DNA from: Bugula neritina
Lineage: Eukaryota > Bryozoa > Gymnolaemata > Cheilostomatida > Bugulidae
Length of the DNA: 64,000 bases
Direction: 5' to 3'
Assembly: GCA_964035545.1 (NCBI GenBank)
Contig: OZ037765.1
Coordinates: 14,626,698-14,690,697 of the forward strand
Under the pieces are notes generated by a model that saw nothing but the letters and a program-made list of their open reading frames with translations, had not been told where the DNA came from and did no database searches. Positions 12,713-47,070 of the stretch are shown one piece after another. Both the position numbers and the translations under genes were made by a program. Positions within the stretch are counted from its first letter, which is position 1. The number at the start of each line of letters is the position of its first letter.

Positions 12713-13866
12713 ATGTCTCTAAATACCGAGTTCCAAGGTAAGCCTGCATAGGTCTTGTATTCCTATCTGTGAAAACAGGTCTGTTACCGGTTAATTCTGA
12801 ACTAATCAATCTGATTGAGTCAGAGTTACTGGGGACCGTGTCTAATGTGAATGGCGACGAGGACATAGTAATGGCCGACAATCTGTTAGATCTAGAGCTA
12901 GACACTATGATACTTAGTCAGTCTACAAGTTTGAACACGGTCTCTCAAGTGCCTTAAAAATGGATTTGTGACCCTCAGACGAGTAACAGTCGATTGTCAC
13001 GAGAATTATGTTGTAAAGGTCAACTTCGATCTAACAATAATTCTATTCTTTTAGACGACACTCGTTCCCCCACTCCTCAAGGGATGCCATCTTTAGAAAT
13101 GGTGTAGGATCCGGAGCCTAAACCACCTACTAGATCAAACCGCACACTGCCACATGCATTAGAAGCCAAGTTGTGCTGGACGACGCCAGCAACAGAGAGA
13201 GAGATCCGTCAATACCGGGGTGATGAAGATAGTACTATTTGTTGGCTCTGCCAGCAACACTTCACCACCCGCCGCAGGTTGCGGGTGCATCTCTCACAGC
13301 ACTTGGTTACCACCTTCTGTCCTTGTAGAGAGTTCAGCTACTACAGGGACTATATACTCCGACATCAAAGGACGATGAACTGCTTTCAGGGGAATCTATA
13401 GGATGTGGACAAGGCCTTCTATCCAGAGTTCTTCAACTTAATATGACCCTTTGTCTCTGACCCAGCTCGGCTAGAGTGTCTCTCCCAGAGATTTCCTGCT
13501 CCCCGACCCATCACCCCTGATCCTACCACGAAGCCTCCTAGATACCTGAAGCCACGCATGAAGAACTCTATTTCCAAACTCATACTCCCACCCCGATCTA
13601 TTCCTCGAGTCCTACTACAGCGTATTGAGACAAAGCCCTACAAACGTTCCTCTTCTCTTCCTCCTATAGATTGTAAGAGATGGTGGCAGTCTTCTTCCCC
13701 TCCCCATCCTTCATCACTGGCCCGTAACTTGCGGAAAGTAGAGCTCCGGACCAGCGAACTAGAACGGGAGGTCCATCGGCTTGCTTTCAAAATTTCAGAT
13801 GCAACAAGTGAGCTGTGGCCACTAAAGGAGTCGGTAGCTCAGCTCAAACGGGCTGCTAAAGACTAA
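12713..13866 (+). pseudogene. ORF3 zinc-finger accessory gene of gypsy B (2 exons)
   Basis: Exon 1 is 12713-12737 (ATG TCT CTA ... CAA G), 25 nt, ending at a GTAAGC donor and starting 22 nt after the pol stop. The acceptor TTCTATTCTTTTAG ends at 13054. Exon 2 runs 13055-13866 in one uninterrupted frame except three stop codons (near 13106, 13399 and 13444). It contains CX2CX12HX3H (CWLCQQHF...HLSQH) and CXCX12HX4C (CPCREF...HQRTMNC) fingers, then YPEFFNLI, a basic Ser/Pro-rich stretch and a helical C-terminus ending LKRAAKD. Exon length, phase and finger spacing match gypsy C. It is dead only through the point stops. Function unknown; nucleic-acid binding is an inference from the fingers. Confidence 0.8.
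12781..12957 (+). CDS. Conserved short reading frame inside the ORF3 intron
   Basis: About 58 codons ending in TAA, beginning near LLPVNSELINLIESELLGT. The same frame in gypsy D (minus strand, ~45080-44900) is alignable codon by codon: NLIE/NLVE, LLGTV/LLGTL, NGDED/NSDES, LELDTM/VELESM, SQST/SQRT. This is protein-level conservation rather than an intron relic. An AACAG that could be an acceptor precedes it at 12778. It could be a cassette exon or a retained-intron product. The equivalent region of gypsy C is shorter and does not keep the frame. Function unknown. Confidence 0.5.
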   Translation: MLPVNSELINLIESELLGTVSNVNGDEDIVMADNLLDLELDTMILSQSTSLNTVSQVP

Positions 13867-20282: not shown

Positions 20283-20727
20283 TGTTGTCAAATTAGAATG
20301 AACGGCAGCTCCAAGCTGCCACCGTGACCACCTACCACCCCTGCGTCACACCAAGCGCCACCTCGACTTGCCCCACACAAGCCAACGCAGTTTGGCTCTC
20401 CCAACTGCCAAGCAGAATACTCTTACGACTACACTAGTAGCCCCCCTACCAGCAACACTTCGCTGGTAGGCAACTAAACTGAAAAACTATAGATTAGATA
20501 GACTAAAGATAACTAGAGCACTAAATTACAGAAAAGAAACAACTACCTACTAATAGTAATGATTAAGTATAACGATACAACTATTCTACTAAGTGACAAA
20601 AACAGAGAAATAATCTTAAGCCAAACCACACGTCCTTTGCTGAATAATAACAACTTTCAAAAGGGCCGCTAGTAATCCAACATGGCCGCTCGCAAGTAGC
20701 GTGGTCGGTCCGAGAGGACAACTCACA
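20283..20727 (-). repeat. 3' LTR of gypsy G
   Basis: 445 bp, TGTGAGTTGTCC...TGACAACA on the minus strand. The polypurine tract AGCTGGGGGAGA (20728-20739) directly precedes it in element orientation. Confidence 0.9.
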
Positions 20728-20768
20728 TCTCCCCCAGCTTCTCATGAAGCTCTAACAAACCTGCACGA

Positions 20769-23700
20769 CTAGCACTCATAGTCTGAGAGATAAGCAGGTT
20801 GCCGCCGCACTCGTTGCGGTCGTTCTAGTCGAACCGGCATCCGCTCTGCTGCCACCTCAGCTTGGTCTACTACACGGCGTTCTCCAACACCAACCGGTCG
20901 TGTGCCAACAGCCTCGAGACGCTCGGTCCCAACCCGCTCTGGGTCTCTCATCCAGCCGAGGTGCCTCTTCAACCTCACGACCAACCAGGTCAGGTGTGGC
21001 GTCTTCTGTGACCCGAGCCAGCAAAGGTTCCGAACCGAGATTGTCCTGACCAGCTGAGTCACCACATAGAATCTCGGGTTCACACCAACCGCGCTCTCGG
21101 CTTCCCTCATAGCGACGTGTTCTAACATCTCTCACATGCCGAGGCACCCCGTTCACACAGACTGTGTGCTTTGACGTGATGCCGGTGATCTGCCCAAGGG
21201 CCCACCGCCTCGTGCAAGAAGCAGGGGATGGTTTCACCCAAACGTGATCACCAACCGCGAACTTACTATCGCCTGCTGCGTCAACCTCCTGCGAGTTGAC
21301 ATCGAAAGGCACTCGCCACGGGTACCGGAACAAGACATTAGAAGGGACAGAGCTCTCATCGACATCCTTGCGAGGTGTAACATTATACCAAAATGCTGCC
21401 TCTTCTGGAGTGATGCCCCCTCTTTCCGCAATCCTCTTGATTGTCCTATGGTTTCTCTCTACAATCCCATTGCCGCTCGGGGCGTAGGCAGCTCGGAATC
21501 GAAGAGATATTCCCCACTCGTCAGCAAACCGCTCCACTGCTGCTGACCTAAACGCCATAGAATTATCCATGAGAAACTCATAGCATGGCCCTCGCTCAAC
21601 AACAATACTTCGCAGTTGAGCAACAATGTTATCTGCAGACTCTGTCTGCAGTCGTCGCCATATGGCAAACCTCGATGGACCGCAGTCCACCATTGACAAG
21701 AAAAGCCGGCCCTCGTAATGGGTCACATCAACAGCAACCCTGTGCCAATTGCCTTCCACGGACAAACTTCCGGTCGGCACGAAGTTCTCAGATCGCAAGG
21801 CCGGATCAATCCTCTGGCAAGCCTCGCAACCAGCGAGCTTGGACTTTACCTGCTCCCGGGACAGATCTCCACGGATCTGCTTAGCAAGGTATAAAGTTCT
21901 ATCGATGCCCAGGTGGTGAGGCAGATGTGCTGCCCAGACTGCATCCTCGACACTCTCGCCGGTGGCCAGCGCTGCAGTTACATCTGCACCGAGACTTCCT
22001 GTCTCTCGATGCCCGAGCCACGGCTTGGGCACCCTAGTCATGCAGTCTGCCTTGTTCTCGGCAGTTGGCACAAATCGTACTGACACATCAAGACCAAACT
22101 CAGAGATAGTGTCTCGGATCACGCCCAGCCGGCGCTTCACCAACATCTCTGCAGCACCCTTTGTCTTGACACGACTGCGTGCATCGATCGTGTTACCCAC
22201 CCAACTCACGACAGTAAGTGAGTCGACAGCCAATGTGAAAGATTTTAAGCCCCATGCGATGGCCAGGTTAATACCCCTTGCGACGGCTTCTAACTCGGCA
22301 ACATTGATGTGAGAGTGGTCCGCTTCCTTACGGAGCCAGGACGCGTCCTCTATGATGCGTCCGCCCACGTCAAGTACCACTCCGATGCCAATAGAGCTAG
22401 CATCGGTCCAAACAGTGACTGGATCACCAGAATCCACACGCCAAGGACCCCGAACTGGGTCCTCATTGCGAGCTTTGGTTAAAAGCTCTTTCGCCAGCAT
22501 GCTGACTGTCTCCCCAACAGGTGAATCCCAAGCCCCGCCACAACCCAGGCGCTTGAGGAAACTGCACTGCAGTCGCAGCCATCCTGCGACTGGGTAGTGC
22601 CCGACCAATCGACCGCACAAGGAGAATAGTTCTCGCTTAGTTAGCCTAACAAAGTCGGCGCTGATGTCAGTCAAGGGTGTGGTCCTAGACATTTGTAGAG
22701 CTCCGTGGTTATCCTGCTTTAGGGCAATTCCCAACAGACGGCCACCATCGAGGCCAAACGGCTCTTTCGTCTGGAGCCCATACTTTGCAAGATGCTGGCG
22801 CACTTCCTCAGCACTGGCGATAGTCTCTTGCACCACTATATCGTCAATATAGTGATCCGTCGCCCGACGAACACGATCGTCAAGAGACAGCACCTTGCCA
22901 AGAATGGAAGTCATGATCCTCGGAGCACACGACAGGCCAAAGCCTAGTCTCGTCAATGCGTAGTGCACCCCCTTGTATTTCACAACCTGATACTTCCACA
23001 GGTCCTTAGAAACATGGATCTGCAAATACGCAGACTTCAGATCCACCACCTTGAGCTCACCGCGCAGCTGCCTCCACTTCCTGATCTTTTCGCCACAGAC
23101 GGCAACTTTGTCGTCACCTGTATGGCACTCGACAAAGGCATTTAGCTCACGGTAGTCCATGACTGGCCGCACCTTGTCCTTTGTCGGCTGGAAAACTGCA
23201 AGCAGTGGGATTATCCCTTCGACTGGACCCTCCCACGGTTGCAGCCAGCCCTTGGAAATCCAGCTTTCTAGTTCAGCACAATAGCGCTCGTGCACCAAGG
23301 GTGTTTGAGTGCATTTATACTCAGTTACACGAGTTTGCAAACCTCTTGGAGTCTCGCCGGACCATCGCCAACTGACAGTCCACCGGCCCTTGAAAAACTT
23401 TGCCACAAAGTCAGGGTCCTGCACCTGCAGCGTCTCCGGATCACCGCTATGACTGGCAATAGCCGCATCGCCCGCAACACATGCTAGCCTTCGGTCTGTG
23501 TTCCCTTGCCGGGGAGAAGCACAGCACCCTGCGGAACTGAGCGCGCCCCAGACAACCGAATAGCCTGAGCTAGGCAATCTTTTGACCGTGACCCCTCCCA
23601 TGTGATCAATTACGTCTCCCCCAAGGAGACAGTCAACACCAAGGTTGCCCAGCTTACTCATAACCGGCGCAGTGACACTAAAACAGTGCCCCTGCAGCCC

Positions 23701-24132
23701 TACCACAATGCGACTCGTGCCACTCACATGAGAAGCACTGCCATCTGCTGTCAAGAGCGGCCTACCTGGCCGAAGGCCTATTCCCACCACCACCCGTGGA
23801 CTGACCAAAGTCCGCTCGCTTCCAGTGTCAACCAGACACAGGAAACATCGACCGTTCAAAACGGCCTGGACAACTGGCATTCGGCCTGATGTTAGTTTAA
23901 TACCAGCCGCCCTCGACAAGTCCAACCTGCCACCCGGCACACACGCACCGCTCAGCAACTCCCTCTTAGGAGAGAACTGCCCCTCTCGGTAAGCCCGGCT
24001 TACTCGATTTCCATCGGGGGAGGTACGCCGCCCCGGTCTGTACCTCCCACCAGAAAATCCTGCGCACCGACAGCTGCAGCTGCCTGCGGACAGCTGCTGA
24101 TGTAGTGCTCGATGCTTCCACACCGAAAACAC
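20769..24132 (-). CDS. pol: Pol polyprotein of gypsy G (protease, RT, RNase H, integrase)
   Basis: Open for 1091 codons (24132-20857); the first codon is GTG within the gag overlap, not an independent start. In order: protease LVDTGSERT (~residue 100), RT with VVDLKSAYLQI and YIDD (~350-470), RNase H (TVWTDASSIGIG and VDSLTVVSWV, ~570-670), integrase HHCC finger (HLPHHLG...CEACQ, ~745-780) and DDE core ending GNGIVERNHRTIK (~905). The last ~30 residues read a non-typical tail; another frame continues to RRQPAYLSDYEC at 20769, the expected kind of C-terminus, so one frameshift near 20950 probably altered only the tail. Pol is in the -1 frame relative to gag. I saw no classical slippery heptamer in the overlap. 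Confidence 0.88.
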
Positions 24133-24956
24133 CCGGACTTCCTGGGTCCCTTCGCACTAGGTGCCTTGCGCCTTGTGGTGCAGTCCTTCACTTTGTGAGG
24201 ACCACCACACCGATAGCAAGCGTTGCTACCCGGCTGCTGCCGCCCAGAGGCTGTCGCAGCAACCACACCCTGGCCTACCTTGCTACGGCTGGCCACTGCC
24301 CTCCGCGAGACCACCTTGTCTCGCACCCGTGCCAACACTGACCCAAAATCGGCCGTGTAGGCATGGTCATGGGTCACTGCCCACTCATGAATCGCGGGCG
24401 GCAAGCCCTCATAGAACTGAGCTCGAAAGCTCAGGTTATTGCAGGACATGCCAACCCTGCGGCCGAACCGCTCTAAGCGGTCCAAAAAGGTGTCAACTGT
24501 ATCGCCTTCTTCCATTCGGCTCGAGACAAACTTGCGCCATGCCTCCTGCCTTGGCATGGCATATTCGGCCAAGAGTGCCCCCTTCACAACATCCCACTGG
24601 GATGCGTCTCCCACCATCATCCTGCTGTACACGCGAGCAGCATTGCCACCCAGCATGTACACCAGGAGATCCGTCGGAGAAATATTCTCCACACGGCAGT
24701 ACCCCTCGTACCTTGCCAGCCACTCCGAGATGTCCTCACTTCCATCTCCAGTGAACGGATTCGCCAGCTGACGAATCCTGGTGAGGATCGGCCCCCTGGC
24801 CTGGTTTAGCATAGTTGCTAATAATTTTACGTCCACAAGGACTGGCGCAGTCTCAGCTGCCGAGGTTGAGGGCACAGCTACGCTAGCTGGGCCGTCAGCC
24901 TCCGAACTCTTGACCTCACTTCCAGAGTCCACACTTCCTTCTGCAGGTGAGGACAT
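24000..24956 (-). CDS. gag: Gag of gypsy G
   Basis: 318 codons from ATG at 24956 to TAA at 24000, 33 bases downstream of the 5' LTR. An acidic Ser/Ala-rich N-terminus is followed by a capsid-like helical region (residues ~55-220, including NPFTGDGSEDISEWLARYEG) and two zinc knuckles, CYRCGGPHKVKDC (~247) and CFRCGSIEHYISSC (~275). It overlaps pol by about 130 nt. It would assemble the cytoplasmic particle and bind the element RNA. Confidence 0.88.
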   Translation of the reverse strand: MSSPAEGSVDSGSEVKSSEADGPASVAVPSTSAAETAPVLVDVKLLATMLNQARGPILTRIRQLANPFTGDGSEDISEWLARYEGYCRVENISPTDLLVYMLGGNAARVYSRMMVGDASQWDVVKGALLAEYAMPRQEAWRKFVSSRMEEGDTVDTFLDRLERFGRRVGMSCNNLSFRAQFYEGLPPAIHEWAVTHDHAYTADFGSVLARVRDKVVSRRAVASRSKVGQGVVAATASGRQQPGSNACYRCGGPHKVKDCTTRRKAPSAKGPRKSGCFRCGSIEHYISSCPQAAAAVGAQDFLVGGTDRGGVPPPMEIE

Positions 24957-24989
24957 TTTGATTCATCAAAAGTAACAGCCGAAATAGCT

Positions 24990-25434
24990 TGTTGTCAAAT
25001 TAGAATGAACGGCAGCTCCAAGCTGCCACCGTGACCACCTACCACCCCTGCGTCACACCAAGCGCCACCTCGACTTGCCCCACACAAGCCAACGCAGTTT
25101 GGCTCTCCCAACTGCCAAGCAGAATACTCTTACGACTACACTAGTAGCCCCCCTACCAGCAACACTTCGCTGGTAGGCAACTAAACTGAAAAACTATAGA
25201 TTAGATAGACTAAAGATAACTAGAGCACTAAATTACAGAAAAGAAACAACTACCTACTAATAGTAATGATTAAGTATAACGATACAACTATTCTACTAAG
25301 TGACAAAAACAGAGAAATAATCTTAAGCCAAACCACACGTCCTTTGCTGAATAATAACAACTTTCAAAAGGGCCGCTAGTAATCCAACATGGCCGCTCGC
25401 AAGTAGCGTGGTCGGTCCGAGAGGACAACTCACA
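24990..25434 (-). repeat. 5' LTR of gypsy G
   Basis: Identical by eye to 20283-20727. The sequence immediately inside it (AGCTATTTCGGCTGTTAC on the minus strand) lacks the TGG that a tRNA 3' CCA end would pair with. Confidence 0.9.
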
Positions 25435-27179: not shown

Positions 27180-28072
27180 CCTAGGATCTGCGGGACCTGT
27201 TCGTCAGACAGGATAGGGAGTCTTCAAGTTGACCCAGTTCACTAGTGGTAGCCAACAGCTGGGGCGTAAGCCTACCAAATCCAACTTCTAACTTGTGGAT
27301 ACAATGCTCCAATTTGCGGATGGGATCGATTAAGGTCAGAACCGGGGAACTAGGCATTTTTAGATTGACCTAATTTCTCATGTGCTTCCTCTGCTTCTCA
27401 TCAGATCTAGAATCCCGTGAAGGGAAGAGGGACCTGAGAGTAAAAAATTTGATTGCCATGGTATCTGCATCCATTCGGCATAGTACCGCTGGGTGTTCCG
27501 GACGAAGCTGATCAGGAGATGCTGACTTTATGCCCTCTCCGTATAGGTGGGGTTTTGGAAGCAGCCCTTTTGTGATGACCTGAGGTAAAAAAAATCTGCT
27601 AGACAGGGCAGTCAGTTTATCTGGATCATTGGTCAGTGGCCGGATAACGGCGAAAATTTTCGGGAATGTAGGCTTGTCAATGTCAAAAAGGTGCTCGTTG
27701 TAACATCCTGTGGCCTGCTGATGACATGTTATGAAGGTTCTATAATAATTGTGCTCCCCACAAAGGTCAAAAGGTCGCAGTGAAGTGTTGGGGTACGTGG
27801 TGTTTTAGGTCTTGTGGAGTGCTGAAAATCCGCTGGCACAGCCTGCAGGATGTATTATCTGAATCTCCCCAAGCAGCTCTCATCTTGCGATCAGTTACTG
27901 CATAGATCTACCCAGTGCCATCATCGACGGAGAGGAGCGGGTAGTATTTCCTCTTAAGGGTGAAGGAGACTGGTACAAGAAAAAGAAGAGGATTGTCTCT
28001 TCAGCATGAGGTCGTCGTTTTAAACAATCTCGAGTGACGATGGAGTACCTGTGAGAGCAGGTCGAGTGAGAT
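27180..28072 (-). pseudogene. ORF3 exon 2 of gypsy D
   Basis: A splice acceptor, CTGATTCTGCATTTTTAG, ends at 28073 on the minus strand, and exon 2 starts AT CTC ACT CGA CCT, matching gypsy E (AT ACC ACT CGA CCT) and C (AT TAC ACT CGA CCC). It keeps the first finger (CRLCQRIF...HVPQH, ~27860-27800); the second has lost one Cys (DLCGEHNYY...CHQQATGC). FPKIFAVIRPL and the C-terminal LEHCIHKLEVGFG...LLATTSELGQLE follow. Several stops and a shift. The matching upstream part of this element lies 16.7 kb away at 44870-46250. Confidence 0.75.
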
Positions 28073-28708: not shown

Positions 28709-29013
28709 TGTTATAATTTCCAGATTTAGGGTTGATGTGCTATCCAGAGAGTCTATTTATTTACTATAGAACTGCACCAGGATAAGTCGAGTGAACGAGT
28801 ATATTTTACACACAATTATACATTACAAAAACGACACATTATTTCCAAACAAGTTACACATCTAATCTATTTCACACTCTAGCTTCGACTGCGTTAGCAG
28901 CGGGAAACTACAATTGCTGCTAACTATCAACTACGCTAATTGGCTATCCATTGTTCCGGGTCAATTACGCGACCCTACATGTTGTGCTGCTGGTAGTTCC
29001 ACGAACCACCACA
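28709..29013 (-). repeat. 3' LTR of gypsy C
   Basis: 305 bp, TGTGGTGGTTCGTGG...ATTATAACA on the minus strand. It is preceded in element orientation by a G-rich tract, CTGCTGGTGGGGGCGG, the likely polypurine primer (29014-29029). Confidence 0.92.
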
Positions 29014-29299
29014 CCGCCCCCACCAGCAGAAAGCCATCTTTCTGATATATATAAAAAAAACATTCAATAGTAATGGCATACATCAGTGGACAAAATAATA
29101 CATAATATACAGGAAGAGACATAATAATAGACAGAGTCATTATAACGATCCGTTGCATACAAATGGCCAGCTGTAGATAGACGAGGAATACTAGCTAGCT
29201 GTGGTATTAGACAAGGAATAACCTGTCTAGCAGTTAAGCATTTGCACGATCTTGGTTCCTCACAAGTTGTGAAGTTGCGGAGTATTCTGAGTAGCCTAA
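29014..29299 (-). other. 3' untranslated region and polypurine tract of gypsy C
   Basis: About 285 bp between the ORF3 stop and the LTR, non-coding. It ends with AAAGATGGCTTTCTGC and the G-rich tract. The AAAG.(T)GGCTTTCTGCTGG segment is shared with gypsies D and E. Confidence 0.7.
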
Positions 29300-30377
29300 C
29301 TAGAGTCCTTGTTGGGCACGCCTGTGCTTGGCTTGGCATGTACGCAGTTTCCGTTTCATACGGCATACGGATCCCTTTAGCTGGAAGAGTCCTGTTGTAG
29401 TGTTAAGTAGATCTGGTGCCAGCTGGGTGAACTCTTCTTGTAATCGTAGGAGGCGTTCTTCTACTGTAGCCAGGCGTACTGGGTCTGGGGACGGTGTCCG
29501 TCTGTGGCGCAAGGGTGGACTGGGGGACCTGGTTCGTCTCTTCGCCGGTGTGGGGGATATCTCTCCTTCTTCTGGATATGTAATTTCTTCGGGGGTGTAT
29601 GTAATTTGAGGACGGTCAGACACCAACGGGGATTGCTGGCGGGCGTTGTCTAACACACGTTGGAACCCCGAGGACAGAACGGCTAACAACATGGCCTTCT
29701 TCACCAGAGGTCGTATAAGTGTGAGGAACTCCGGGTATAGCTTAGCGTCGACCACGTAGTTTTCTCCAGGGAAACAGCCCGCCGCTCGGTGTCTGGTGAC
29801 GGGGTAGGGATACACATCATTGTACCCGCAGGGGCAGAATGTTAGTAGGAGATGAGCATTGACGTGTAGTTTAAGGGAGCGGTGAGAGGCGCAATCTTCA
29901 CCACAGATCTGGCATCTCGTCCGTCCTCTGGACCCCCAGGCCGTTTCTATTTCTTCCTCTGTTTGTGGAGACACCCACCGCCAACGGCGGCGTAGTGGCT
30001 CAGGCCGGTCACCACTAGCATACTCCTCCGGATACGGAGCGGGAAGTGTTCTATCCCGTACCCTGGTTGTAGCGGGTCGAGTGTAATCTGAAAAAGTTTC
30101 AACAGTGTTAATACAGTACACTGCTGTGTTGTCAGCTTGAACAGCTTGGCAACTCCTAATTCAGTTACCTCGTAGAGATTAATGGTAGTGAATAGTCAGA
30201 TAGAACACGTATTGCAATGAGATTATAAAAATCTCTAAGTCAAACTGAGTTCTTACTACGGTATTTCACTAACCTATCTCCAACTCGATTGACTCAGTGA
30301 GTCAGAGCTGAGCGATGCAATCTAGTTTCGTATTAAGATATAGTTAACTCACCCCACGATCTGTTGTCGTAAGACAT
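29300..30377 (-). CDS. ORF3: spliced tandem-zinc-finger accessory protein
   Basis: Exon 1: 30377-30353 (ATG TCT TAC ... TGG G, 25 nt, donor GTGAGT), 25 nt after the pol stop. Intron: 30352-30088, ending TTGAAACTTTTTCAG. Exon 2: 30087-29300. Predicted 270 residues, starting MSYDNRSW then DYTRPATT. Exon 2 has no ATG until well past the fingers (KKAMLLAVL), so translation needs a spliced leader. Domains: basic/Trp-rich (~30-55); CQICGEDC...HVNAH (CX2CX12HX3H) and CPCGYNDVYPYPVTRHRAAGC (CXCX12HX4C) at ~65-110; conserved VVDAKLYPEFLTLIRPLV; Pro/Ser/Arg-rich middle; helical, Leu-rich C-terminus (RLLRLQEEFTQLAPDLL, LFQLK) with a basic tail. No signal peptide or membrane segment, so not an envelope protein. 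Function unknown; RNA/DNA or chromatin binding is inferred. Confidence 0.75.
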
Positions 30378-30401
30378 ACTGAATGTGTGAAATGGTTTGA
30401 A

Positions 30402-33400
30402 CTACTGCTTAGAAACACGTCTACTCCTGACTGCATCAGCGTATGAAAAGATCGAGCAACGTGGTTGGGGTGCGTGATTAAGACTTTGTGCACCCGGCGG
30501 ATGAATTTTGTTTCTATTTCCGCCGATACAAAAGTTGATATTTCCGTGGTGTTGACAACTCCCACATTTGCTCGATTCTTTTCTCGTACGGTTTTCCCCT
30601 AGACTTTCATGTGTGCCGCTTTTAACGCAGTCACATACGAAGTCCTTCAAGTATGCGGGGGGTTGCCTCGTACGCTGTCCCCTTTCTAGGGGGGGTGACA
30701 CGCTTGCCGGTTCGTTAGTAGGGGCCTCTAATGGCGTCTCTACTTCACCGTTAGCGGTCACCTCTTCTTGTTCTCCGGATGGAGCCCCTCCCTCCGTGGG
30801 GGTTTGCACTTCCGGAACCGGCTCGGTTTCTGGAAGTGATGGAATTAGACTTGGTGGTGGCGGACACGCTTCTGTGGGTAGAAGCTGCCGCTCCTCTCTC
30901 ACCAAGTTTTCTTCCCGCGGTATGACCACTTCGTATTCAGGTCCATGCCGCCGTCGCCCGCGCGTTGTTGTCTGCCTCCTGGGCTCTAACAACGGGGGGG
31001 GGACTTCGCCCACTCCGCCGGGGCTAGCCCAATACGGTTTCAAGCGAGACTCATTCTGGATAGATACCTGTCCTGAGCGCTCAATCTTGTACGTATGATT
31101 GGGCATAGCCTCGACAACCACGTAGGGGCCTACGAACTTAGGCTTCAGCTTATCAGCCTGTCCGCGGCGCCTACGATAATTGACCATCCACACCTTATCT
31201 CCCTTTTGATAGAGGGGTGGTTCATCGGAATCTTCGTGCCGCACCTTCCACTGCTGTTGGCGCAGTATCTCGTGTACGGCCTTCATCCGCTCCACTAGTT
31301 CACTGGCATACTCGTGGACTGAGTTATCTTGCTCTGGAACGTGATAGGTGAGATGGTCGGGGACACGAGTCTCTCTCCCGAGCATCAAGAGGTTTGGGGT
31401 CTCACCAGTACTGGTGTGTGGGGTGCTACGGTATGCACGCATGACTTGCGGCAACACCGTATCCCATTCCTCTTGACCTCGTCCAAGGAGGAGACTCCGG
31501 AGTGCATCACCTAGCATCCGGTTGTTGCGCTCCACCACCCCGTTACCTTGAGGGTGGTAGGGGGTGGTCCTGCTCTGATTTACTCCCCAGAGGTGGCAAA
31601 GGTCGCTCATCAGTTGAGACTGGAATTGAGCGCCTTGATCAGAGTGTATCTGTTCGGGAAGCCCAAAATAACAGAATACATGTTGGTCTAGCGCCCTGGC
31701 CACTGTTGGGGCTGATGCATCTGGGATAGCCAGAGCATCCGCCCACCTAGTAAAGTGGTCGGTTAGTACTAGGATCCAATTATTGCCTCTGGGGGTCAGG
31801 GGCATGGGTCCGACCAGGTCTACAGCGACTACTTGCCAGGGCCTACCAGCATATAGCCTCCGCCGTCCTGCTTCACCAGGGGGGCGGCTATGCTTACTGG
31901 CCTGGCAGATCTCACACTGTTTGACTCTGAGCCGGACGTCACGCTCCATCTGCGGCCAATACCACCGGAGTCGTAATTTGGATATCACTCGCTTGACCCC
32001 TGCGTGGGCCTGCTTGTGAGTATCCCAAATCAACTCACGGCGGATGGCTGTGGGGCAGACTACCCTCTTCCTTTCCGGGTGTCTGCCGCTGGCAGCTAGA
32101 GAGATGGTTAGCAACCCATCCTGCCCGATCCGCAGCGAGTCCCAACGCTGACAGTATAGCCGGAACTCGGCGCATCCCTGTCGTATGCGTTCCTCGCTGG
32201 GTCGTCGCCCTTCCCTTTTGGCCCGGTATATGTCTGCCACGACTCCAGGCAGCTCTTCTTGGAGCTTCTTCAGCTCTCGAACATTACCGGCCAGTACAGG
32301 GTTGGCACGGAGGTTTTGTACATCCTCCGGGGACTCATCAACTCTTTGCCTGAGTTGACCTTGATCCCAGTCAAACGGTGCTCCGTGATGAGCCAGCGTC
32401 TCCAACTCGCATCGTGGGGGACCTCCATCCCTCCTCTCGATGTTGAGACACTGTTTGCAACCTCCGTCAGGTCGGCGACTCAACCCATCCGCATTGCTGT
32501 GTCTCTTGCCCGGTCGATGTTCGATCCGGTATGAGAATTCAGCTAGGATTTCGAGCCACCGGGCGACCTGACTAGAGGGCTCTGCTCTCCTGCACAACCA
32601 GATCAGCGAGGCATGATCCGTACGCAGCCGGAACTTCCTGCCATATAGGTATGGTCTGAAGTGCTTCACTGACTTGATTACTGCCAGCAGCTCCTTGCGG
32701 GTAGTGCAGTAATTTCGTTCAGCGGGAGAGAGAGACTTGCTGTAGTAGGCTACTACTACCTCTCGGCCTTCCTGCACCTGTGACAGCACAGCGCCAACAT
32801 TCTGGTCACTGGCGTCCGTGTCTAGGATGTACTCCAGAGTGGGGTATGGGTAGGCCAAGATGGGCGCCGTTAGGAGGCAGCCCTTGAGGCGGTCGAACGC
32901 TTCTTGTTCGACTGAAGTCCACTGCCACGTCACCCCCTTTGCGGTGAGCCGGTTTAGCGGCTGGGCTATGCCCGCAAAGTCTGGTATGTATTGCCTGTAA
33001 TACCCTACCAGCCCCAAGAAAGCCCGGAGTCCGGTCAAGTCTTGGGGGGTGACCCAGTCTTCTACTGCCCGTACCTTTTCGGGATCCGTTGCCACGCCGT
33101 TTCGACCGACAACGTGCCCCAGATACTTGACCTCCGGCTGCAATAGAGCGCACTTGGAAGGTTTGAGCTTAAGACCGGCACCTCGGAGTCTCTCGAAAAC
33201 CTCCTGCAAACGACTGACATGTGTCTTGAAGTCTGGAGAGATTACGATGACATCATCGAGGTAGACCAGCAGTGTCTTCCAATGGAGTCCGCTAAGGACT
33301 TGTTCCATCAGCCTCTGGAAGGTGGCTGGGGCGGAGGTTAACCCGAAGGGCAGCACCTTCCACTTCCACAAACCATCCCGTGTGATAAACGCCGCTTTCT

Positions 33401-35036
33401 CTTGGGCGTCGGGACTCAGAGGAACCTGCCAATAGCCGCTTAGCAAGTCTAACGTACTGAAGTACTTGCTGCCGGCTAGGGCGTCCAATGACTCGTCAAT
33501 ACGAGGTAGAGGGTAGGCGTCCTGTATGGTTACGCTATTGAGTTTGCGGTAGTCCACACAGAACCGCCAACTGCCGTCTTTCTTCCGGACCAGTACGACT
33601 GGCGAGCTCCACGCACTATGGGCGGGCTCTATCAGTCCCCGGTCCAGAAGATCCCGTACTTGTCGGCTAACCTCCTTCTCTTTCTCCGGCCCCAGCCTGC
33701 GTGTGGGCTGCCGGACAGGGACTGTCCCTGCAGTCAGCGGTATTTCGTGTCTGACAATTCCAGTCAGTCCCACGTCATGCTCTCCGCTGCTGAACACATC
33801 ACCGTAGTCGCGTAGTAACTTAGCCATAGCTTGGCGTTCTTTGTTACTCGCGCAGCCGCCACTGGCTGTTTCGTATAACTCCCGGAGATGTGTTGGGACT
33901 GCCCCCCGTCCCTGAATAGGGCACTGAGGGGGTGCCTCCGTCGCATCACCCAGCGACGGGCCTACGTCTCCCTCCTGAACAGAGTGAAAACGGCCCAGCA
34001 TCGACCCAGCCGGGAGCTTGATAGGCTCGGTAAAGGGGTTGACACACTGCACTAAGATCTCCCCTTGCTCAGTCAGCTGATTCAGACTGCTGGCAAGTTG
34101 GATCTTTTCGTGCCCGCCTTCAACCACCCCGAGTCCAGAGATCCGGCTACTATTCACCCTGCAGTGAATGGTAGCCCGGGAGCGGCCTGGTATGATACGG
34201 TTGCGTACCACTTGCACACCTCCCACTAAAGGGCGGCCGAACTTGTCGACGCAGGTGAGTTCCCGCCCGGACATCATCATTGCAGATCTGCTAAAATCTA
34301 TGTGACATCCGTGCCGTTTAAGGAACGGCATCCCGAGGATAGCATCCTCCTTGAGCTGACTGACGATGAACGTCTCTTGGATCGTTTGATCACGGACTCG
34401 TCCCGTCAGCTCAATTATACCATAGAAGGGAAGGCACGACCCGTCAGCGAGGGTGCCGTATTCCCCTTCATATGCTTCCATCTCGCCCCTGACCCTAGTA
34501 CTGAGGGTGTCGAAGAGCTGGCGGCTTAAGAGGTTTGTGGTACAGCCCGAATCAATGAGGAAAGTAACAGCTTTGCCTTCCAGTTTACCGGGCAAGAAAT
34601 AGCTGTTCCCATGGGGCTGCACCTGAACTCTCCCTTCAGGCCTTACTCTCGCAGGGAGTACCTCCCTCGCTTTGGGTCGCGAAGGAGGTCTCTTAGAGCG
34701 GTGGTAGGTAGGCCTCGGAGGTGCCGAGGCTAGATTCTCAGCTACCTTTGTGGGCTCCCATCCAGATTCTTGGACTTGTAGCCCTGTGAATCTGTTGTGA
34801 AGGGGCATAGAAAAGGCAGCTGCGGGGCGAAACCCCTTGCTGGTCCGTCGTGGCTGTTGCCACTGTTGGTTGCCAGTACGCGGTACCCGTCTGGGTGACC
34901 TGCGTTTCTTCTTCCCTGGAGGTTTCATCGTCGGCCCGCGGAAGGTGGGAACATCTGCGGGCCGCGGTAGTTTAACCCCTGATTTAGGAAGGGACAATAT
35001 CGGCGGAAATGTCCTTGATTTCCGCACTCCCAGCAA
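30402..35036 (-). CDS. pol: Pol polyprotein of gypsy C
   Basis: 1544 open codons in the -1 frame relative to gag; the first codon is CTG inside gag, so expression is as Gag-Pol by frameshifting. Order: basic linker; protease FLIDSGCTTNLLS (~residue 160); RT ~430-640 with YLDDVIVISPDF; RNase H (LDTDASDQNVGAVL, RTDHASLIW, ~740-840); integrase HHCC finger (HKQAHAG...CEIC, ~1020); DDE core with VDLVGPMP, HSDQGAQF and PQGNGVVERNN (~1060-1190); a GPY-type module VGPYVVVEAMPNHTYKIER (~1300); then an acidic/proline-rich tail with a Cys-rich end (DFVCDCVKSGTH). No stop or shift. The C-terminal extension ends 25 nt before the ORF3 start codon. Confidence 0.93.
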   Translation of the reverse strand: MLGVRKSRTFPPILSLPKSGVKLPRPADVPTFRGPTMKPPGKKKRRSPRRVPRTGNQQWQQPRRTSKGFRPAAAFSMPLHNRFTGLQVQESGWEPTKVAENLASAPPRPTYHRSKRPPSRPKAREVLPARVRPEGRVQVQPHGNSYFLPGKLEGKAVTFLIDSGCTTNLLSRQLFDTLSTRVRGEMEAYEGEYGTLADGSCLPFYGIIELTGRVRDQTIQETFIVSQLKEDAILGMPFLKRHGCHIDFSRSAMMMSGRELTCVDKFGRPLVGGVQVVRNRIIPGRSRATIHCRVNSSRISGLGVVEGGHEKIQLASSLNQLTEQGEILVQCVNPFTEPIKLPAGSMLGRFHSVQEGDVGPSLGDATEAPPQCPIQGRGAVPTHLRELYETASGGCASNKERQAMAKLLRDYGDVFSSGEHDVGLTGIVRHEIPLTAGTVPVRQPTRRLGPEKEKEVSRQVRDLLDRGLIEPAHSAWSSPVVLVRKKDGSWRFCVDYRKLNSVTIQDAYPLPRIDESLDALAGSKYFSTLDLLSGYWQVPLSPDAQEKAAFITRDGLWKWKVLPFGLTSAPATFQRLMEQVLSGLHWKTLLVYLDDVIVISPDFKTHVSRLQEVFERLRGAGLKLKPSKCALLQPEVKYLGHVVGRNGVATDPEKVRAVEDWVTPQDLTGLRAFLGLVGYYRQYIPDFAGIAQPLNRLTAKGVTWQWTSVEQEAFDRLKGCLLTAPILAYPYPTLEYILDTDASDQNVGAVLSQVQEGREVVVAYYSKSLSPAERNYCTTRKELLAVIKSVKHFRPYLYGRKFRLRTDHASLIWLCRRAEPSSQVARWLEILAEFSYRIEHRPGKRHSNADGLSRRPDGGCKQCLNIERRDGGPPRCELETLAHHGAPFDWDQGQLRQRVDESPEDVQNLRANPVLAGNVRELKKLQEELPGVVADIYRAKREGRRPSEERIRQGCAEFRLYCQRWDSLRIGQDGLLTISLAASGRHPERKRVVCPTAIRRELIWDTHKQAHAGVKRVISKLRLRWYWPQMERDVRLRVKQCEICQASKHSRPPGEAGRRRLYAGRPWQVVAVDLVGPMPLTPRGNNWILVLTDHFTRWADALAIPDASAPTVARALDQHVFCYFGLPEQIHSDQGAQFQSQLMSDLCHLWGVNQSRTTPYHPQGNGVVERNNRMLGDALRSLLLGRGQEEWDTVLPQVMRAYRSTPHTSTGETPNLLMLGRETRVPDHLTYHVPEQDNSVHEYASELVERMKAVHEILRQQQWKVRHEDSDEPPLYQKGDKVWMVNYRRRRGQADKLKPKFVGPYVVVEAMPNHTYKIERSGQVSIQNESRLKPYWASPGGVGEVPPPLLEPRRQTTTRGRRRHGPEYEVVIPREENLVREERQLLPTEACPPPPSLIPSLPETEPVPEVQTPTEGGAPSGEQEEVTANGEVETPLEAPTNEPASVSPPLERGQRTRQPPAYLKDFVCDCVKSGTHESLGENRTRKESSKCGSCQHHGNINFCIGGNRNKIHPPGAQSLNHAPQPRCSIFSYADAVRSRRVSKQ

Positions 35037-35878
35037 AAACTGACTGTTTCTCCCTGTGGCGGCGCCGATGGCCGCATGGGCTCAGGGGCGGTACTCACTG
35101 GGTTTTGTGGTGTCAGTGTTGCTATCAGCTTGGCTAGCATGTCTGTCAGTTGAGTGACTTTTGATGCCGTCGCCAACTGGGACACGGCAGCCGCGGCGGG
35201 GGTTTCCTCCCCTTGTCCCGCGGCCGTGTCTGCGCGGTCTATCTCCACTTGACGGGAGCTTCCGCGACTTTTATGCATTTGATTAGCTAGGAGGTAAGCT
35301 TCCCCCTCAGTCAGAGCATCTTCAACGGTGGTGACTCCCCTAGCTAGAAACTGGTGGTGGAGACCCAGATCGTCGACAGATGCTATGAAAGCGTCGAGGG
35401 TGTACCTCTCGCGGTTGACTGGGGGCAAGTCGCTGTACGCGATCTGTGCCAGCTTCATGACCGCGGCGGCATGCTCCCGCAGCGGGGTGCGGGAATCACG
35501 CCGCAACCTCTGCAATCGGGCCCTGGCATCTGTAGCAGAGAGGCCAAAGCGGGCCCGCAGAGAAGCAAAGATATTATCAATGTCTACACCCAGCCCATAG
35601 GGCTTGGCTTTGTCCATCAATGCCATTCTAAGCTTCAGCAAGGCCACCCTAGGGGGCCACTGAGCGACGTCCATTACGTCGCTAAACTCTTGGATAAATT
35701 GTTCCACCTCCTCTTCACCCGTGAAGGTGGGCGCCTTTAACCTGTAGCGGTCTTCAGCTAGTTCTCGCGGAACCCTTCGCTCTTCTACTACATGGTTAAC
35801 AGGCATTGTCTCTACAGCATTGTCTCTACGCTCACCTTCGATTGCCGGTGGTTGAGTTCCAGCATTTTCAGTCTCCAT
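34925..35878 (-). CDS. gag: Gag of gypsy C
   Basis: 317 codons, ATG at 35878, 12 nt downstream of the primer binding site. Capsid-like region ~45-215 (DRYRLKAPTFTGEEEVEQF, LGLHHQFLARGV) and one CCHC knuckle CWECGNQGHFRRYC (~290). It ends at 34925 just past the frameshift signal. Codons 14-16 (GAA GGT GAG) form AAG/GTGAGC, a good splice donor at 35835. Its phase also fits the ORF3 acceptor, giving a possible alternative Gag-ORF3 leader. Gypsy E keeps the same motif. Confidence 0.92.
   Translation of the reverse strand: METENAGTQPPAIEGERRDNAVETMPVNHVVEERRVPRELAEDRYRLKAPTFTGEEEVEQFIQEFSDVMDVAQWPPRVALLKLRMALMDKAKPYGLGVDIDNIFASLRARFGLSATDARARLQRLRRDSRTPLREHAAAVMKLAQIAYSDLPPVNRERYTLDAFIASVDDLGLHHQFLARGVTTVEDALTEGEAYLLANQMHKSRGSSRQVEIDRADTAAGQGEETPAAAAVSQLATASKVTQLTDMLAKLIATLTPQNPVSTAPEPMRPSAPPQGETVSFCWECGNQGHFRRYCPFLNQGLNYRGPQMFPPSAGRR
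34932..34976 (-). promoter_or_regulatory. -1 ribosomal frameshift signal of gypsy C gag-pol
   Basis: Minus strand: heptamer GTTAAAC (34976-34970), read in the gag frame as ..G TTA AAC; then a 5-nt spacer; then stem CGGCCCGC (34964-34957) / GCGGGCCG (34939-34932), 8 G-C pairs with a 17-nt loop. Slipping -1 at AAC enters the pol frame exactly. GTTAAAC departs from the strict X-XXY-YYZ rule at the first base but is the heptamer reported for equine arteritis virus. Gypsy B retains it. Confidence 0.72.
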
Positions 35879-35890
35879 CTTGGATGCACT

Positions 35891-35908
35891 ATCCCACCGC
35901 TGCCACCA
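35891..35908 (-). promoter_or_regulatory. Primer binding site of gypsy C (tRNA-Leu type)
   Basis: TGGTGGCAGCGGTGGGAT on the minus strand, one base after the 5' LTR, identical to that of gypsy A and complementary to the tRNA-Leu(AAG/TAG) 3' end. Confidence 0.85.
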
Positions 35909-35909
35909 C

Positions 35910-36214
35910 TGTTATAATTTCCAGATTTAGGGTTGATGTGCTATCCAGAGAGTCTATTTATTTACTATAGAACTGCACCAGGATAAGTCGAGTGAACGAG
36001 TATATTTTACACACAATTATACATTACAAAAACGACACATTATTTCCAAACAAGTTACACATCTAATCTATTTCACACTCTAGCTTCGACTGCGTTAGCA
36101 GCGGGAAACTACAATTGCTGCTAACTATCAACTACGCTAATTGGCTATCCATTGTTCCGGGTCAATTACGCGACCCTACATGTTGTGCTGCTGGTAGTTC
36201 CACGAACCACCACA
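35910..36214 (-). repeat. 5' LTR of gypsy C
   Basis: 305 bp, same sequence as 28709-29013 at a constant offset of 7201; no difference noticed by eye. Confidence 0.92.
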
Positions 36215-41117: not shown

Positions 41118-43439
41118 ATGGCATTAGCAGTTTCTCCAAAAGAAAAACAATTGACAGAGACATTTGAAGAAATTTCTACATGGAAAGTAACTGCTCTAAA
41201 AGAATATCTAAAAATCAGAAACTTGCCACATAGTAAAAAAAGTAAGGTTGAGTTAATCTCTTTAGTTTATGGAGCAATGCACCTTGACTATCAGCCTGCA
41301 AAGTCGGCAATAGAGATGGAAGCACAAAGCAAACGGGAATATTTAGATCTTCTTAAAACTAATGACGGCACAGTAATACTGGATCCACTGACTATTAAAG
41401 ATTGGAGTGAAGAAAGAGACAGTATTTCAATGTGGCCAAAAGTTTTATTTAGTGATCTTGTTATGTATGTGAACGAAGCCAACACTGCTCTTTCTGCAGA
41501 AATGTATAGCAGATATAAGCAAGGAAAAGCCTATGCATATTTTGCGGATGATTGGGTTAGCACCATAAAATATTACCATGAACCTTCATCTAATGTAGCA
41601 TATTTTACAACAGTGTGTAGACCTAGTGAAAGAATTTCTGCAACCCCACATAGTGTTTGGATTGCTTGCCTTCAAATAACTGGGAAGATACTTTCTGCTT
41701 GGTGCAGCTGTACTGCAGGGTAAGCAATGACATGATATTATATTCCGGCTCTATCAAATTTTTCAAATGACTTAATGATAGTTATAAATAAGTATTGTGT
41801 GCAAATTTTGCCAGAGTATGATTTTCTGTGTTTTTAAAACATATTTACATATCATGCTGAACTAAATTTTTTATTTCAGGCTTAGCTCCTCTTGCAACCA
41901 TATAGCAGCAGTTGTTTTCAAACTTGATTATATATCCCAAAAAGAGCCATTCAAAAGAAGTTGCACTGACGGAGAGTGCAACTGGAAACGCTCCACCAAA
42001 AGTGTGTGTACACCAAGGCGTCTTGCTGACCTTCATTTTTTTAAACCAGATTATAAAAAAGGTAAGCATCAAGAATAAAGTAGAGAAAATATTTGGCTTA
42101 AATTGTTAAAGTAACTTTGTTTATGACTGTTACTTAGCGAATTTTTTACTAAAATAATAATTGAGTTAATAAATATTATTTTAACTGTTGGTAAAATAGA
42201 ATTAGGGTGCCATTTATAGTTATAACTGCTGCACTTTACTGTTTACAGGAAAAGACAGGAATTATGCCCGAATGCATAGAAAAGTGGCTACTAGTAACAA
42301 TGGAGGTGTAATTTTCAAAGAGTGGGAGGAAGAACTTAAAATCTTTGCTAGTGAGAGTACATATATTCTTGAAAAATATGGTAAAAAACCAAGCCTTGAA
42401 GAATGGCAAAAAGTTCAAGAAACCACATTATTAAAAGGTACAACACATAAGGAGTACTATGTCTGACCATCTAAATGTTCTATTTTCTGTAATACTGCAT
42501 ATGTTTGATATACACAACAAAAATTTTGTGTTGTGTATGTACATTAAGCATACATATAGATTGATAAGTTTTCTTATAGAAGTTGAACCATTTAAAGATC
42601 TGGTTATGTCAACCCTGGCAGAGAGCGCAGATAGTCCAGAGCATTTCTCTAAATTGGTCAGAACCATGTCCATAACAAGAAATCAAGTGTGGGAAATAGA
42701 AGCAGCAACAGTGAAGCAGAGTGACAGCCCCCTTTGGAAATTGCTCAGACATGGCCGAATTACTGCTTCTAATTTCTATCGTGTGAAGACACGAATGGAA
42801 TCTCAAGTTAAGGACGCACGTACTGACATGAGCAAATTAGTAAGCTCATTAATAAGCCCAGGAGACATAAGCTCTGTACCTTCCATTCAGCATGGCCGCT
42901 CAATGGAAGCTAAAGCAAAACAGACATACTTAAATTTAAACAGCCCTCATCACAAGAAACTAACTGTTAGGGACTGTGGACTGTTTTTGTCCACAGAGTT
43001 TGCATTTTTAGGTGCTTCCCCTGATGGGATAGTGAGCTGTGAGTGTCACGGGGAAGGCATTCTGGAAATTAAGTGCCCGGCTTTAGATGATCTCCCATCA
43101 TTCAATACAGTTTCCTTTCTAAAAAAATCTTTCGATGGCACAAAGTCAATCCTCAAAAAGAAACACCAATATTATGGCCAAGTACAAGGTCAGCTTAAAA
43201 TAACTAAAGCCGAATATTGTGATTTTTTTGTATTTACTGTTAGGGGAAGTGTAACTCAACGCATAACACATGACTTGAGATTCACAGAAACCATGTTCAT
43301 CAAACTGTCCAGATTTTTTAACGATTATCTCAGCCCAGCATTTTGGCTGCAGCATAATCAAACTGAGGAGCCTTCAAAAAAGCAGACCTGTTTTTCAGAA
43401 ATAGAAACAAAGCCTTTAGCTGCAGCAAAAATGGAGTGA
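41118..43439 (+). CDS. SAP-SWIM-YqaJ nuclease of the ISL2EU-like element (4 exons)
   Basis: Exons 41118-41719, 41880-42061, 42249-42437 and 42580-43439. Donors are GTAAGC, GTAAGC and GTACAA; acceptors TTATTTCAG, GTTTACAG and TTCTTATAG; all phases fit, giving about 610 residues. The start is the ATG at 41118 (MALAVSPKEK). N-terminal SAP-like motif (WKVTALKEYLKIRNLPHSKKSKVELI split at residues ~18-43), a SWIM-like finger across the first intron (CSCTAG / SSCNHIAAVV), then a YqaJ (lambda-exonuclease-type) domain: GRITASNFYRV, HGRSMEAKAKQ, FLGASPDGIV, GILEIKCPA, HQYYGQVQGQL. The catalytic D and E-x-K are present. YqaJ partners are known from ISL2EU elements; a role in processing transposon or repair ends is inferred. 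Confidence 0.84.
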
Positions 43440-46250: not shown

Positions 46251-46251
46251 A

Positions 46252-47070
46252 ATGGGGTGGTAGAAAGAAACAACAGAAGGCTGGGCGACGCTCTCTGAAG
46301 CCTCCTTTTAGGACGAAGTTAGGAAGAGTGGGACGTTCTGTTGCTACAAATCATGCAGGCATATCAAAGTACACCTTACTCTAGCACGCAAAAGATCTCG
46401 AACCTGCTGATGTTAGGCCGCAACACTAGAGTTCCTGAGCAGCTCACTTACCACGTCCCAGCTCCTGAGTTCCCGATACATGAATACGTAGGGAAATTGG
46501 TGGAAACAATGAGAAAAGCTCATCAAGCCCTGTGGGAGAAGCAGTGGGAAGTGCGGACAGAAGACTTCAAAGAGCCCCCCTTATACTGAGAAGGGGACTG
46601 GGTGTAGATGGTTAGCTATCGTAGGCATTGCGGATAGTCGGCTAAACTGCAGCCCAAGTTCGTCGGTCTCTACTGTGTAGTAGAGGTTTTACCCAACTAT
46701 TCGTATTGTGTGGAGCAGCGCTTAAAACCCTGTTACGGTAATCCGGAAGCCGCAAGACAAGCACCATCATTGCTGGAACTAACCCTCTAACCCATATCTC
46801 GCGGAAGAAGGAATCAACCTAGAGACTGGGAAATATTCATTTGCAACCCCGAAAAAATTGGCGACAACCCACAACCACAGTCCCAGAATTCACCACCAAA
46901 TCCCCTCATTCCAGATCCACCCCATGACCGCCCGAACGGAAAACCTTCCGCCACCACCAAAAGACCCAGAAGAGACACTTCCAATAGAAGACAGCCAAGG
47001 TCAGCCAGACACTTCAGCACCCAACACCCTAGAACGGGGTAGAAGAAATAGAAGTTCCCGAAATATTTAG
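46252..47070 (+). pseudogene. pol 3' part of gypsy F
   Basis: Plus strand, beginning at NGVVERNNRRLGDAL in the integrase core, then QIMQAYQSTPYSS, LLMLGRNTRVPEQLTYHVP and the basic VSYRRH module. It becomes proline-rich and untypical, ending at 47070. A shift near 46300 and a stop at 46588 break it. Its 5' end meets the 5' end of gypsy D head to head. Confidence 0.72.

Follow-up and report, generated by a model that had tools for sequence, protein, structure and literature searches.

The stretch of DNA analysed here, in the following called the window, comprises 64,000 nucleotides (nt) of the bryozoan Bugula neritina (contig OZ037765.1, positions 14,626,698 to 14,690,697 of the forward strand). 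The mitochondrial COX1 of this genome, translated with code 5, agrees in all of 447 residues with that of B. neritina, whereas the second-best match by score, Flustra foliacea, reaches 89%; by this gene the host is B. neritina or a species that COX1 does not distinguish from it. It contains a complete long terminal repeat (LTR) retrotransposon of the Ty3/gypsy type, the family A element, which lies on the reverse strand and extends from LTR to LTR over positions 28709-36214. Between pol and the 3' LTR this element carries a third open reading frame, ORF3 (29300-30377), with a tandem zinc finger. An initial annotation had presented ORF3 as a gene 3' of pol in a Ty3/gypsy-type element that is not env-like, and our analysis supports this description. 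We are very confident of the identity of the ORF3 module, as defined below, and of its expression by splicing.

On the reverse strand the element begins with the 5' LTR (35910-36214, delimited by self-comparison) and a primer-binding site, TGGTGGCAGCGGTGGGAT (35891-35908), which we take to be complementary to the 3' end of animal tRNA-Leu. gag (34925-35878) encodes a CX2CX4HX4C knuckle that was recognised by eye; the Pfam zf-CCHC model scored 12.7 bits here, below its cut-off. The first 14 codons of gag plus one base (35836-35878) are followed by a splice donor, GTGAGC at 35835; this gag exon 1 ends in the phase of ORF3. pol (30402-35081) codes for protease, reverse transcriptase (RT), RNase H and integrase (H2C2 domain and core), all assigned by Pfam, and for an SH3-like tail that scored under the cut-off. 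Then follow a mini-exon (30353-30377; ATG plus 22 nt, MSYDNRSW) with the donor GTGAGT at 30352, an intron of 265 nt (30088-30352) and the ORF3 main exon (29300-30087), which encodes the two fingers, a DxxxYPEF..LIRPL segment, a linker and, at the C-terminus, a helix that ends in a basic tail. A purine-rich tract, GGTGGGGGCGG (29024-29014), directly precedes the 3' LTR (28709-29013). LTRs, target-site duplication, primer-binding site and the order protease, RT, RNase H, integrase are all those of a Ty3/gypsy element.

In a self-comparison of the window the two LTRs were identical (305/305). The element is flanked by a 4-bp duplication, ATAC, at 36218-36215 and 28708-28705, and its outer flanks were found contiguous at 44870-43793 with 99.3-99.6% identity. 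The latter is a natural empty site within a repeat. Thus ORF3 is part of a mobile unit that moved very recently. The host genome (216 Mb in 295 contigs) contains gag matches at no fewer than 122 places. Of the 136 ORF3 places, 101 (drawn from the top of the list, a few being passed over) were compared with all 122 listed gag places. For 90 of the 101, gag was matched upstream in the same orientation, in 84 cases at a distance of about 5.6-5.8 kb, which is the spacing in the window copy.

The main frame of ORF3 is open from 30160 to 29300 and has no ATG ahead of the fingers. An alignment of 25 loci of family A, to which the window element belongs, and of families B and C, together with the single loci L069 and L075, revealed the exon structure. 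The mini-exon with the ATG has 25 nt, or 22 nt in family C owing to a 3-nt deletion, and ends G|GTGAG (GTGAA in L075). The intron of about 265 nt has many indels that are not multiples of three and is followed by (C)TTTTTCAG, CTCTTTCAG or CTCTTGCAG. Across the join the main exon mostly starts with D-Y/H-T-R, or with G-Y/H/N-T-R in L047, L051, L053 and L075. A regular expression found a mini-exon of 25 or 22 nt, always in phase 1, in 89 of the 97 distinct loci; the eight misses are five loci with a variant exon or acceptor (one of them without ATG), the intron-less locus L050, and L031 and L091, where no donor was found. Of 104 loci, which include 7 duplicates, 102 had the acceptor in phase.

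The splicing predicted from these exons has left traces in the genome. The joined mini-exon/ORF3 sequence matched the host genome seven times (by its letters four times in family A, twice in B and once in C), the reversed control not at all. L050, which was read directly, joins mini-exon and ORF3 exactly at the predicted sites, with the 265-nt intron removed. In the other three spliced A copies gag lies 5551-5552 nt ahead of residue 24, versus 5805-5817 nt in four unspliced copies of the main A group. These three copies are therefore otherwise about full-length. In two more unspliced copies, from the divergent A subfamily, the distance was 5780 and 5515 nt. A deletion can thus look like a removed intron when only the distance is measured, and the junction itself carries more weight.

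In another splice form the ORF3 exon follows directly on gag exon 1, the phase of which is the same in families A and B. The metagenome protein P0026 starts with MAEEGTELPIPRNE-DHTR, and gag of family B starts with MAEDGTELPIPLNE. Only one of 146 matches of P0026 in the host genome (G000:C4:11843579-11844361, reverse strand) covers residue 1; the next ones begin at residues 12-16 or later. This locus is intron-less, open and 81% identical to P0026, and may represent either a processed copy or a gene that has been domesticated. A pattern for the gag-ORF3 junction matched once, at this same place; as reversed controls gave 3 and 1 matches elsewhere, the pattern alone is weak. Since DNA copies of spliced forms exist in three families, ORF3 is, as judged from genomic sequence, expressed by splicing, either through the mini-exon or through gag exon 1.

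The ORF3 protein has about 260-270 residues. We define the module as C2-X10-14-H3-5-H, then CXC-X11-13-H..C/H, then a V(D/E) segment and a coil, and ORF3 fits this definition. The finger spacing given in the initial annotation is correct: the tandem pattern is present in 81 of the 84 distinct host loci whose exon is open, 51 of which have C2C12H3H-5-CXC12H4C, 29 the same with H3C and one another form, and in none of 28,200 shuffled ORF3 sequences. The ligand spacing of finger 1 is canonical for C2H2. We found 57 metagenome homologues of ORF3 (45-98% identity, none of them named), and 30 of these, many being truncated, show the tandem pattern. No Pfam family scored over its cut-off with ORF3; C2H2 (PF00096) reached 13.4 of the required 25.2 bits. 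It was also not described among the matches listed in the literature searches; the initial annotation had likewise recognised no known retrotransposon accessory protein with this architecture. On a simple hydropathy scale the lack of a membrane helix is for the most part borne out, as the best 19-residue stretch had a median of 1.51 and a maximum of 1.95 in the 84 host loci and a median of 1.18 and a maximum of 2.15 in 40 metagenome proteins of more than 200 residues. The C-terminus is basic, with a median net charge of +9 over the last 30 residues (range -2 to +10).

AlphaFold2 modelled ORF3 with a mean pLDDT (its per-residue confidence score) of 63. The first finger reached about 90, the second 58-82 and the final helix 64-93; the first 58 residues, 24 of which are encoded by the intron part of the frame, stayed below 50. 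Weak structure matches of the finger model were to DNA-binding C2H2 fingers; no viral structure matched at E <= 0.001. ORF3 is thus probably a small nucleic-acid-binding protein with two zinc fingers, a long C-terminal helix and an Arg-rich tail. Tandem C2H2-like fingers, helix and basic tail would also suit a protein that binds the DNA of the element and either regulates transcription or suppresses host silencing. Such a protein can be supplied in trans, and its retention under selection in a non-autonomous lineage, as described below, would not be expected; we regard this explanation as improbable. As a side observation, one finger match lies inside an open frame of 63,007 codons (G000:C2:22724085-22724441), which is perhaps masked or satellite sequence.

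The ratio of nonsynonymous to synonymous divergence (dN/dS) of the ORF3 exon was determined for 84 of the 97 distinct loci; the other 13 were dropped for an early stop or a missing acceptor. Within groups it was 0.122 (main A), 0.132 (diverged A), 0.150 (B) and 0.169 (C). Between groups it was 0.076 for the A subfamilies, 0.107 for B and C, 0.135 for A and B and 0.164 for A and C, the last three with saturated dS. The constraint is unevenly distributed: between the A subfamilies dN/dS was 0.036 in the finger block, 0.043 in the coil, 0.143 in the linker and 0.238 in the N-terminal part, and the linker is much freer between families (0.40-0.64). ORF3 is thus conserved under purifying selection in at least three families. 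The initial annotation had named a lack of such selection, or a match to a captured host gene, as findings that would speak against it; dN/dS was far below 1 and no captured host gene was found. C2H2-like fingers are common in host proteins, and ORF3 might for this reason be a host zinc-finger gene that was captured once and now drifts. We reject such a drifting capture, which is extremely improbable given the low dN/dS between families, the many families and the distant metagenome relatives; the module itself might nevertheless have an ancient host origin. Separately, we note that dS between family A and its diverged subfamily differs along the exon (N-terminal part 0.27, fingers 1.24, linker 0.57, coil 1.40); this points to lineages having recombined or to a constrained 5' part.

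The presence of five ORF3 copies in the window, as initially proposed, was confirmed with a profile hidden Markov model built from 45 metagenome homologues, with the window sequence excluded, and run on the 1916 six-frame peptides of the window. All five places were matched; the best E value with reversed peptides was 0.71. The copy at 29300-30377 (match 29303-30160, reverse strand, E 2.8e-111) is the only intact one. The others are decayed and come from more distant families, so that the assignment of all five to one family does not hold. Copy 1 (12713-13866, forward strand; matches at 13108-13398 with E 1e-14 and 13447-13863 with E 1e-5) still has a 25-nt mini-exon (12713-12737, ending AAG|GTAAGC) and an acceptor, TTCTTTTAG, near 13054. 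Copy 2 (27180-28072, reverse strand; 27373-27804, 27184-27369 and 27770-27907 with E 3.8e-6, 1.3e-5 and 3.1e-5) and copy 5 (50996-51869, reverse strand, first finger gone; 51343-51657 and 50999-51214 with E 1.2e-13 and 2.9e-5) also retain acceptors despite their decay, CATTTTTAG|ATCTCACTCGACC immediately before 28072 and CTCTTTTAG|ATACCACTCGACC immediately before 51869. The borders assigned initially at 28072 and 51869 are therefore the first bases past acceptors, and the one at 30377 is the ATG of a separate exon of 25 nt. Copy 4 (47642-48610, forward strand; match 47903-48364, E 9.5e-17) is a member of families whose fingers can lie in one long frame together with the preceding stretch.

This last arrangement bears on the origin of ORF3. 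A search with the integrase part of the window Pol yielded 705 proteins, of which 120 were listed; 69 of these 120 continue for 150 residues or more past the integrase block. With the first ORF3 profile the module was found behind integrase in 24 of the 120 (domain E < 1e-3). A second-round profile, for which fused proteins served as part of the training set, found it in 36. In these 36 proteins it lies 181-698 residues past the integrase block and never before it. The tandem finger pattern is present in 23 of them. By eye, their module starts with W-V and continues with both fingers and the V(D/E) segment, and many also have a helical end; in the fused forms, V(D/E) and coil were judged by eye throughout. 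The finger-module part of five fused proteins gave nothing over the Pfam cut-off. In Bugula, the stretch 47052-47564 that precedes the fingers of copy 4 lies behind an integrase match (46251-46859). Stretch and fingers match one open frame of 594 to 1996 codons at five places of the genome and frames that differ in length at about ten, and many other finger matches are within frames of about 1980-1998 codons. In an integrase tree, the sister group of family A and P0058 consists of two fused proteins, P0059 and P0063 (support 0.85), and fused proteins occur at scattered positions within the clade.

ORF3 is thus most likely, from these sequence comparisons, a detached Pol module and not a replacement of env. 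Because of the fused sisters and the scattered fused proteins in the tree, detachment is more likely the derived state; losses and unlisted proteins leave doubt. The description of ORF3 as a gene in env position is accordingly right in that it sits downstream of pol, yet in relatives the same module is a part of Pol behind integrase. That ORF3 is a remnant of or substitute for an envelope gene could be argued from its location between pol and the 3' LTR and from a coiled-coil extension in the element Gypsy_Ds1, which its authors take as a possible env remnant (PMC7998251). However, ORF3 has no clear membrane segment on the hydropathy scale, the viral structure comparison was negative as stated above, and the conserved parts are the fingers and the coil. 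We consider an envelope origin very improbable.

The origin next to integrase keeps another explanation alive, namely that ORF3 is a factor for integration or nuclear entry, a DNA or chromatin tether that was detached from Pol and still works with integrase. The position of the module behind integrase in all 36 listed fused proteins and the weak resemblance of the finger model to DNA-binding fingers are in favour of this. It has to be weighed against the properties of family B.

Family B elements are about 5.4 kb long. Two mapped copies retain gag (only partly matched in one of them) and the protease part of pol, after which pol jumps from about residue 450-464 to 906-909 and from 1097 to more than 1400; RT, RNase H and the integrase core are missing. 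The integrase core was absent in 29 of the 30 loci of the B search, L075 being the exception. The RT-RNase H junction was read directly in ten loci of this search, whereas L069 shows the integrase loss only. The integrase junction is common to L069 and B, and therefore the loss of integrase is older than their split. In a search with P0026, 98 of 135 ORF3 places had a listed gag upstream, 89 of them at 3.1-3.9 kb, and judged from this distance family C is probably reduced as well. Most listed gag matches of B contain no stop.

In 27 B loci that share the deletion, the pol remnants decay neutrally: divergence by codon position was 0.071/0.075/0.092 and 0.078/0.082/0.069, and indels that shift the frame were present in 23 and 25 of the 27 loci, respectively. 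In contrast, ORF3 in the same loci showed 0.049/0.029/0.124, indels in none and a stop in one. ORF3 was therefore under selection after the enzymes had been lost. A lineage without integrase, RT and RNase H thus retains ORF3, although a tether together with its integrase could be borrowed in trans, and the tether explanation also leaves the conserved RNA described next unexplained. We consider it rather unlikely.

The third part that family B keeps, besides gag and ORF3, is the RNA of the ORF3 intron. Intron divergence in the 27 loci was 0.026, a third of that of the neutral pol remnants (0.076-0.079). For 13 non-redundant introns with a mean identity of 72%, alifold gave an energy of -84.1, compared with -38.7 +/- 4.2 for shuffled columns; none of 200 shuffles reached the observed value. 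The predicted structure has 77 pairs, with 95.6% of 979 cells standard and 18 pairs changed on both sides. When the partners were slid by 1-3 columns, 34-43% were standard and 1-6 pairs were changed on both sides, in a control that favours the structure as it uses the sequences from which the structure was derived. In the helices 95 G.U cells were found versus 14 A.C cells, as expected of sense-strand RNA; the antisense alignment reached -77.3, so energy alone does not settle the strand. Both splice sites are paired in predicted helices. No Rfam family matched the intron RNA at E <= 1. By these comparative data the intron is a conserved structured RNA that would be present in unspliced RNA and missing from the ORF3 mRNA.

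A possible interpretation, which we tentatively favour at just short of an even chance, is that ORF3 acts on the RNA of its own element, in export, splicing or packaging, similar to CERV of Cer1 or to Rev. The module most likely arose at the C-terminus of Pol behind integrase and became a separate gene in the lineage of the window element. Default splicing would yield the ORF3 mRNA; the protein would attach to genomic RNA that is still unspliced, with the intron structure as the probable site, and multimerise through its C-terminal helix; and accumulated ORF3 would keep full-length RNA unspliced, exported or packaged, which would constitute a control loop. The loss of proteins that can be borrowed in trans, with gag, intron RNA and ORF3 being kept, is best explained by an action on the own RNA; this is an argument, not a demonstration. 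The more specific version, in which the finger/coil module of Pol turned into a stand-alone spliced regulator with its own intron RNA, an independent and strongly cis-acting pair like Rev and its response element (RRE), we regard as doubtful.

Several observations weigh against an action of ORF3 on its own RNA. Small indels relative to L070 occur in the introns of 25 of the 27 B loci, and the slid-partner control is biased as mentioned. The intron structure alone could control splicing without any binding of ORF3, and since intron-less RNAs were reverse transcribed and inserted, the intron was dispensable there. The occurrence of the module as a fused part in 36 of the 120 listed Pol relatives fits a role in the particle or with integrase at least as well, and these fused relatives may need no control of splicing or export. 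Finally, the second finger is poorly predicted, and the structures that the finger model weakly matches are DNA-binding C2H2 fingers.

A role in the particle could be that of a packaging or RT-assisting protein, i. e. a second nucleocapsid-like factor on the genomic RNA. The fused form would reach particles along with Pol, the gag-ORF3 splice form bears the first 14 residues of gag, and gag and ORF3 are both retained in the non-autonomous lineage. Yet gag already has a CCHC-like knuckle, and the reverse transcription of intron-less RNAs means that the intron RNA is not strictly required. Such a function seems unlikely to us.

The window harbours further elements. A second LTR element (20283-25434) has 445-bp LTRs that are 100% identical, a pol with DUF7047 and a gag with a CCHC knuckle; the profile search of the six-frame peptides gave no match to the ORF3 module in it. 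An ORF of 1030 residues with endonuclease and RT, belonging to a long interspersed nuclear element (LINE), lies at 56298-59390 between blocks of one tandem repeat (55309-56274 and from 59399), which suggests that in this region (55309-60607) the LINE was inserted into a satellite. An ORF at 42435-43439 bears YqaJ/viral alkaline exonuclease domains. In the assembly, a COX1 copy resembling the mitochondrial one lies within a large scaffold (G000:C6:11174072-11175412), and among contigs C196, C65 and C17 two have a COX1 in two pieces that we presume to be foreign and one an oxidase that we presume to be bacterial. These oddities may reflect an organelle insertion or an assembly join, plus other organisms in the assembly.

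ORFs in env position of animal and plant retrotransposons are mostly unexplained. ORF3 offers one with a traceable origin, most likely in a C-terminal module of Pol, and also brings a splice history in DNA copies, an adjoining conserved RNA and a natural gene-loss experiment on which parts are retained. If ORF3 acts on its own RNA, export or splicing control would have evolved anew from new parts, and the bryozoan families would be tractable protein-RNA pairs for testing. If instead it works with integrase, it would represent a new class of tether comparable to chromodomains.

Several known systems are similar in part. HIV Rev is a small spliced protein with an Arg-rich segment whose structured RNA target is absent from its own mRNA. 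ORF3 shares the small size, the splicing, the Arg-rich segment and a structured RNA outside its own mRNA; its RNA binding is hypothetical. TR-GAG elements are non-autonomous LTR elements that keep gag only. Like these, family B keeps gag and has lost RT and integrase, but it additionally keeps ORF3 and the intron RNA. Chromoviruses carry a chromodomain behind integrase. Both this domain and the ORF3 module are C-terminal accessory parts of Pol; here, however, the part consists of zinc fingers and a coil and was detached in one lineage.

The chromodomain of chromoviruses is also mentioned in PMC7998251, which describes Gypsy_Ds1 of the ostracod Darwinula. This element has a coiled-coil extension of about 250 residues behind integrase, which according to an alternative of the authors helps integrase to contact other proteins. 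As in the fused module, Pol is extended behind integrase and includes a coil; fingers are not named in the section on it. The extension is the nearest printed trace of the module among the sources used, and its kinship, which comes from the description only, is a lead only. In bdelloid rotifers, ORF3s of LTR elements (GDSL, DEDDy, coiled-coil, env) likewise include non-env ORFs behind pol and are typically expressed from spliced messages; no finger module is mentioned, 'zinc' and 'finger' occurring 0 times in the main text (PMC5408684). A non-env ORF3 is of a known kind. The module, its Pol-fused relatives and the intron RNA were not described among the matches listed in our literature searches and, as far as the literature searched shows, are apparently undescribed.

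A further parallel is CERV of Cer1, a Ty3/gypsy element of C. elegans. According to PMC10309623, CERV is spliced from exons in the gag frame to an ORF between pol and the 3' LTR, and the export of genomic RNA depends on it. It contains what may be a Cys-rich finger and a leucine zipper; its authors see no obvious homology outside nematodes. CERV and ORF3 thus share the position between pol and the 3' LTR, a spliced mRNA that starts in the gag frame, a possible Cys-rich finger, a potential leucine zipper and the lack of env character, a likeness drawn from the description of CERV and not from its sequence. In contrast to ORF3 with its C2H2-like fingers and about 260-270 residues, CERV has 517 residues, H, M and G domains and a possible C4-type finger, and it is in the relatives of ORF3 that the module is fused to Pol.
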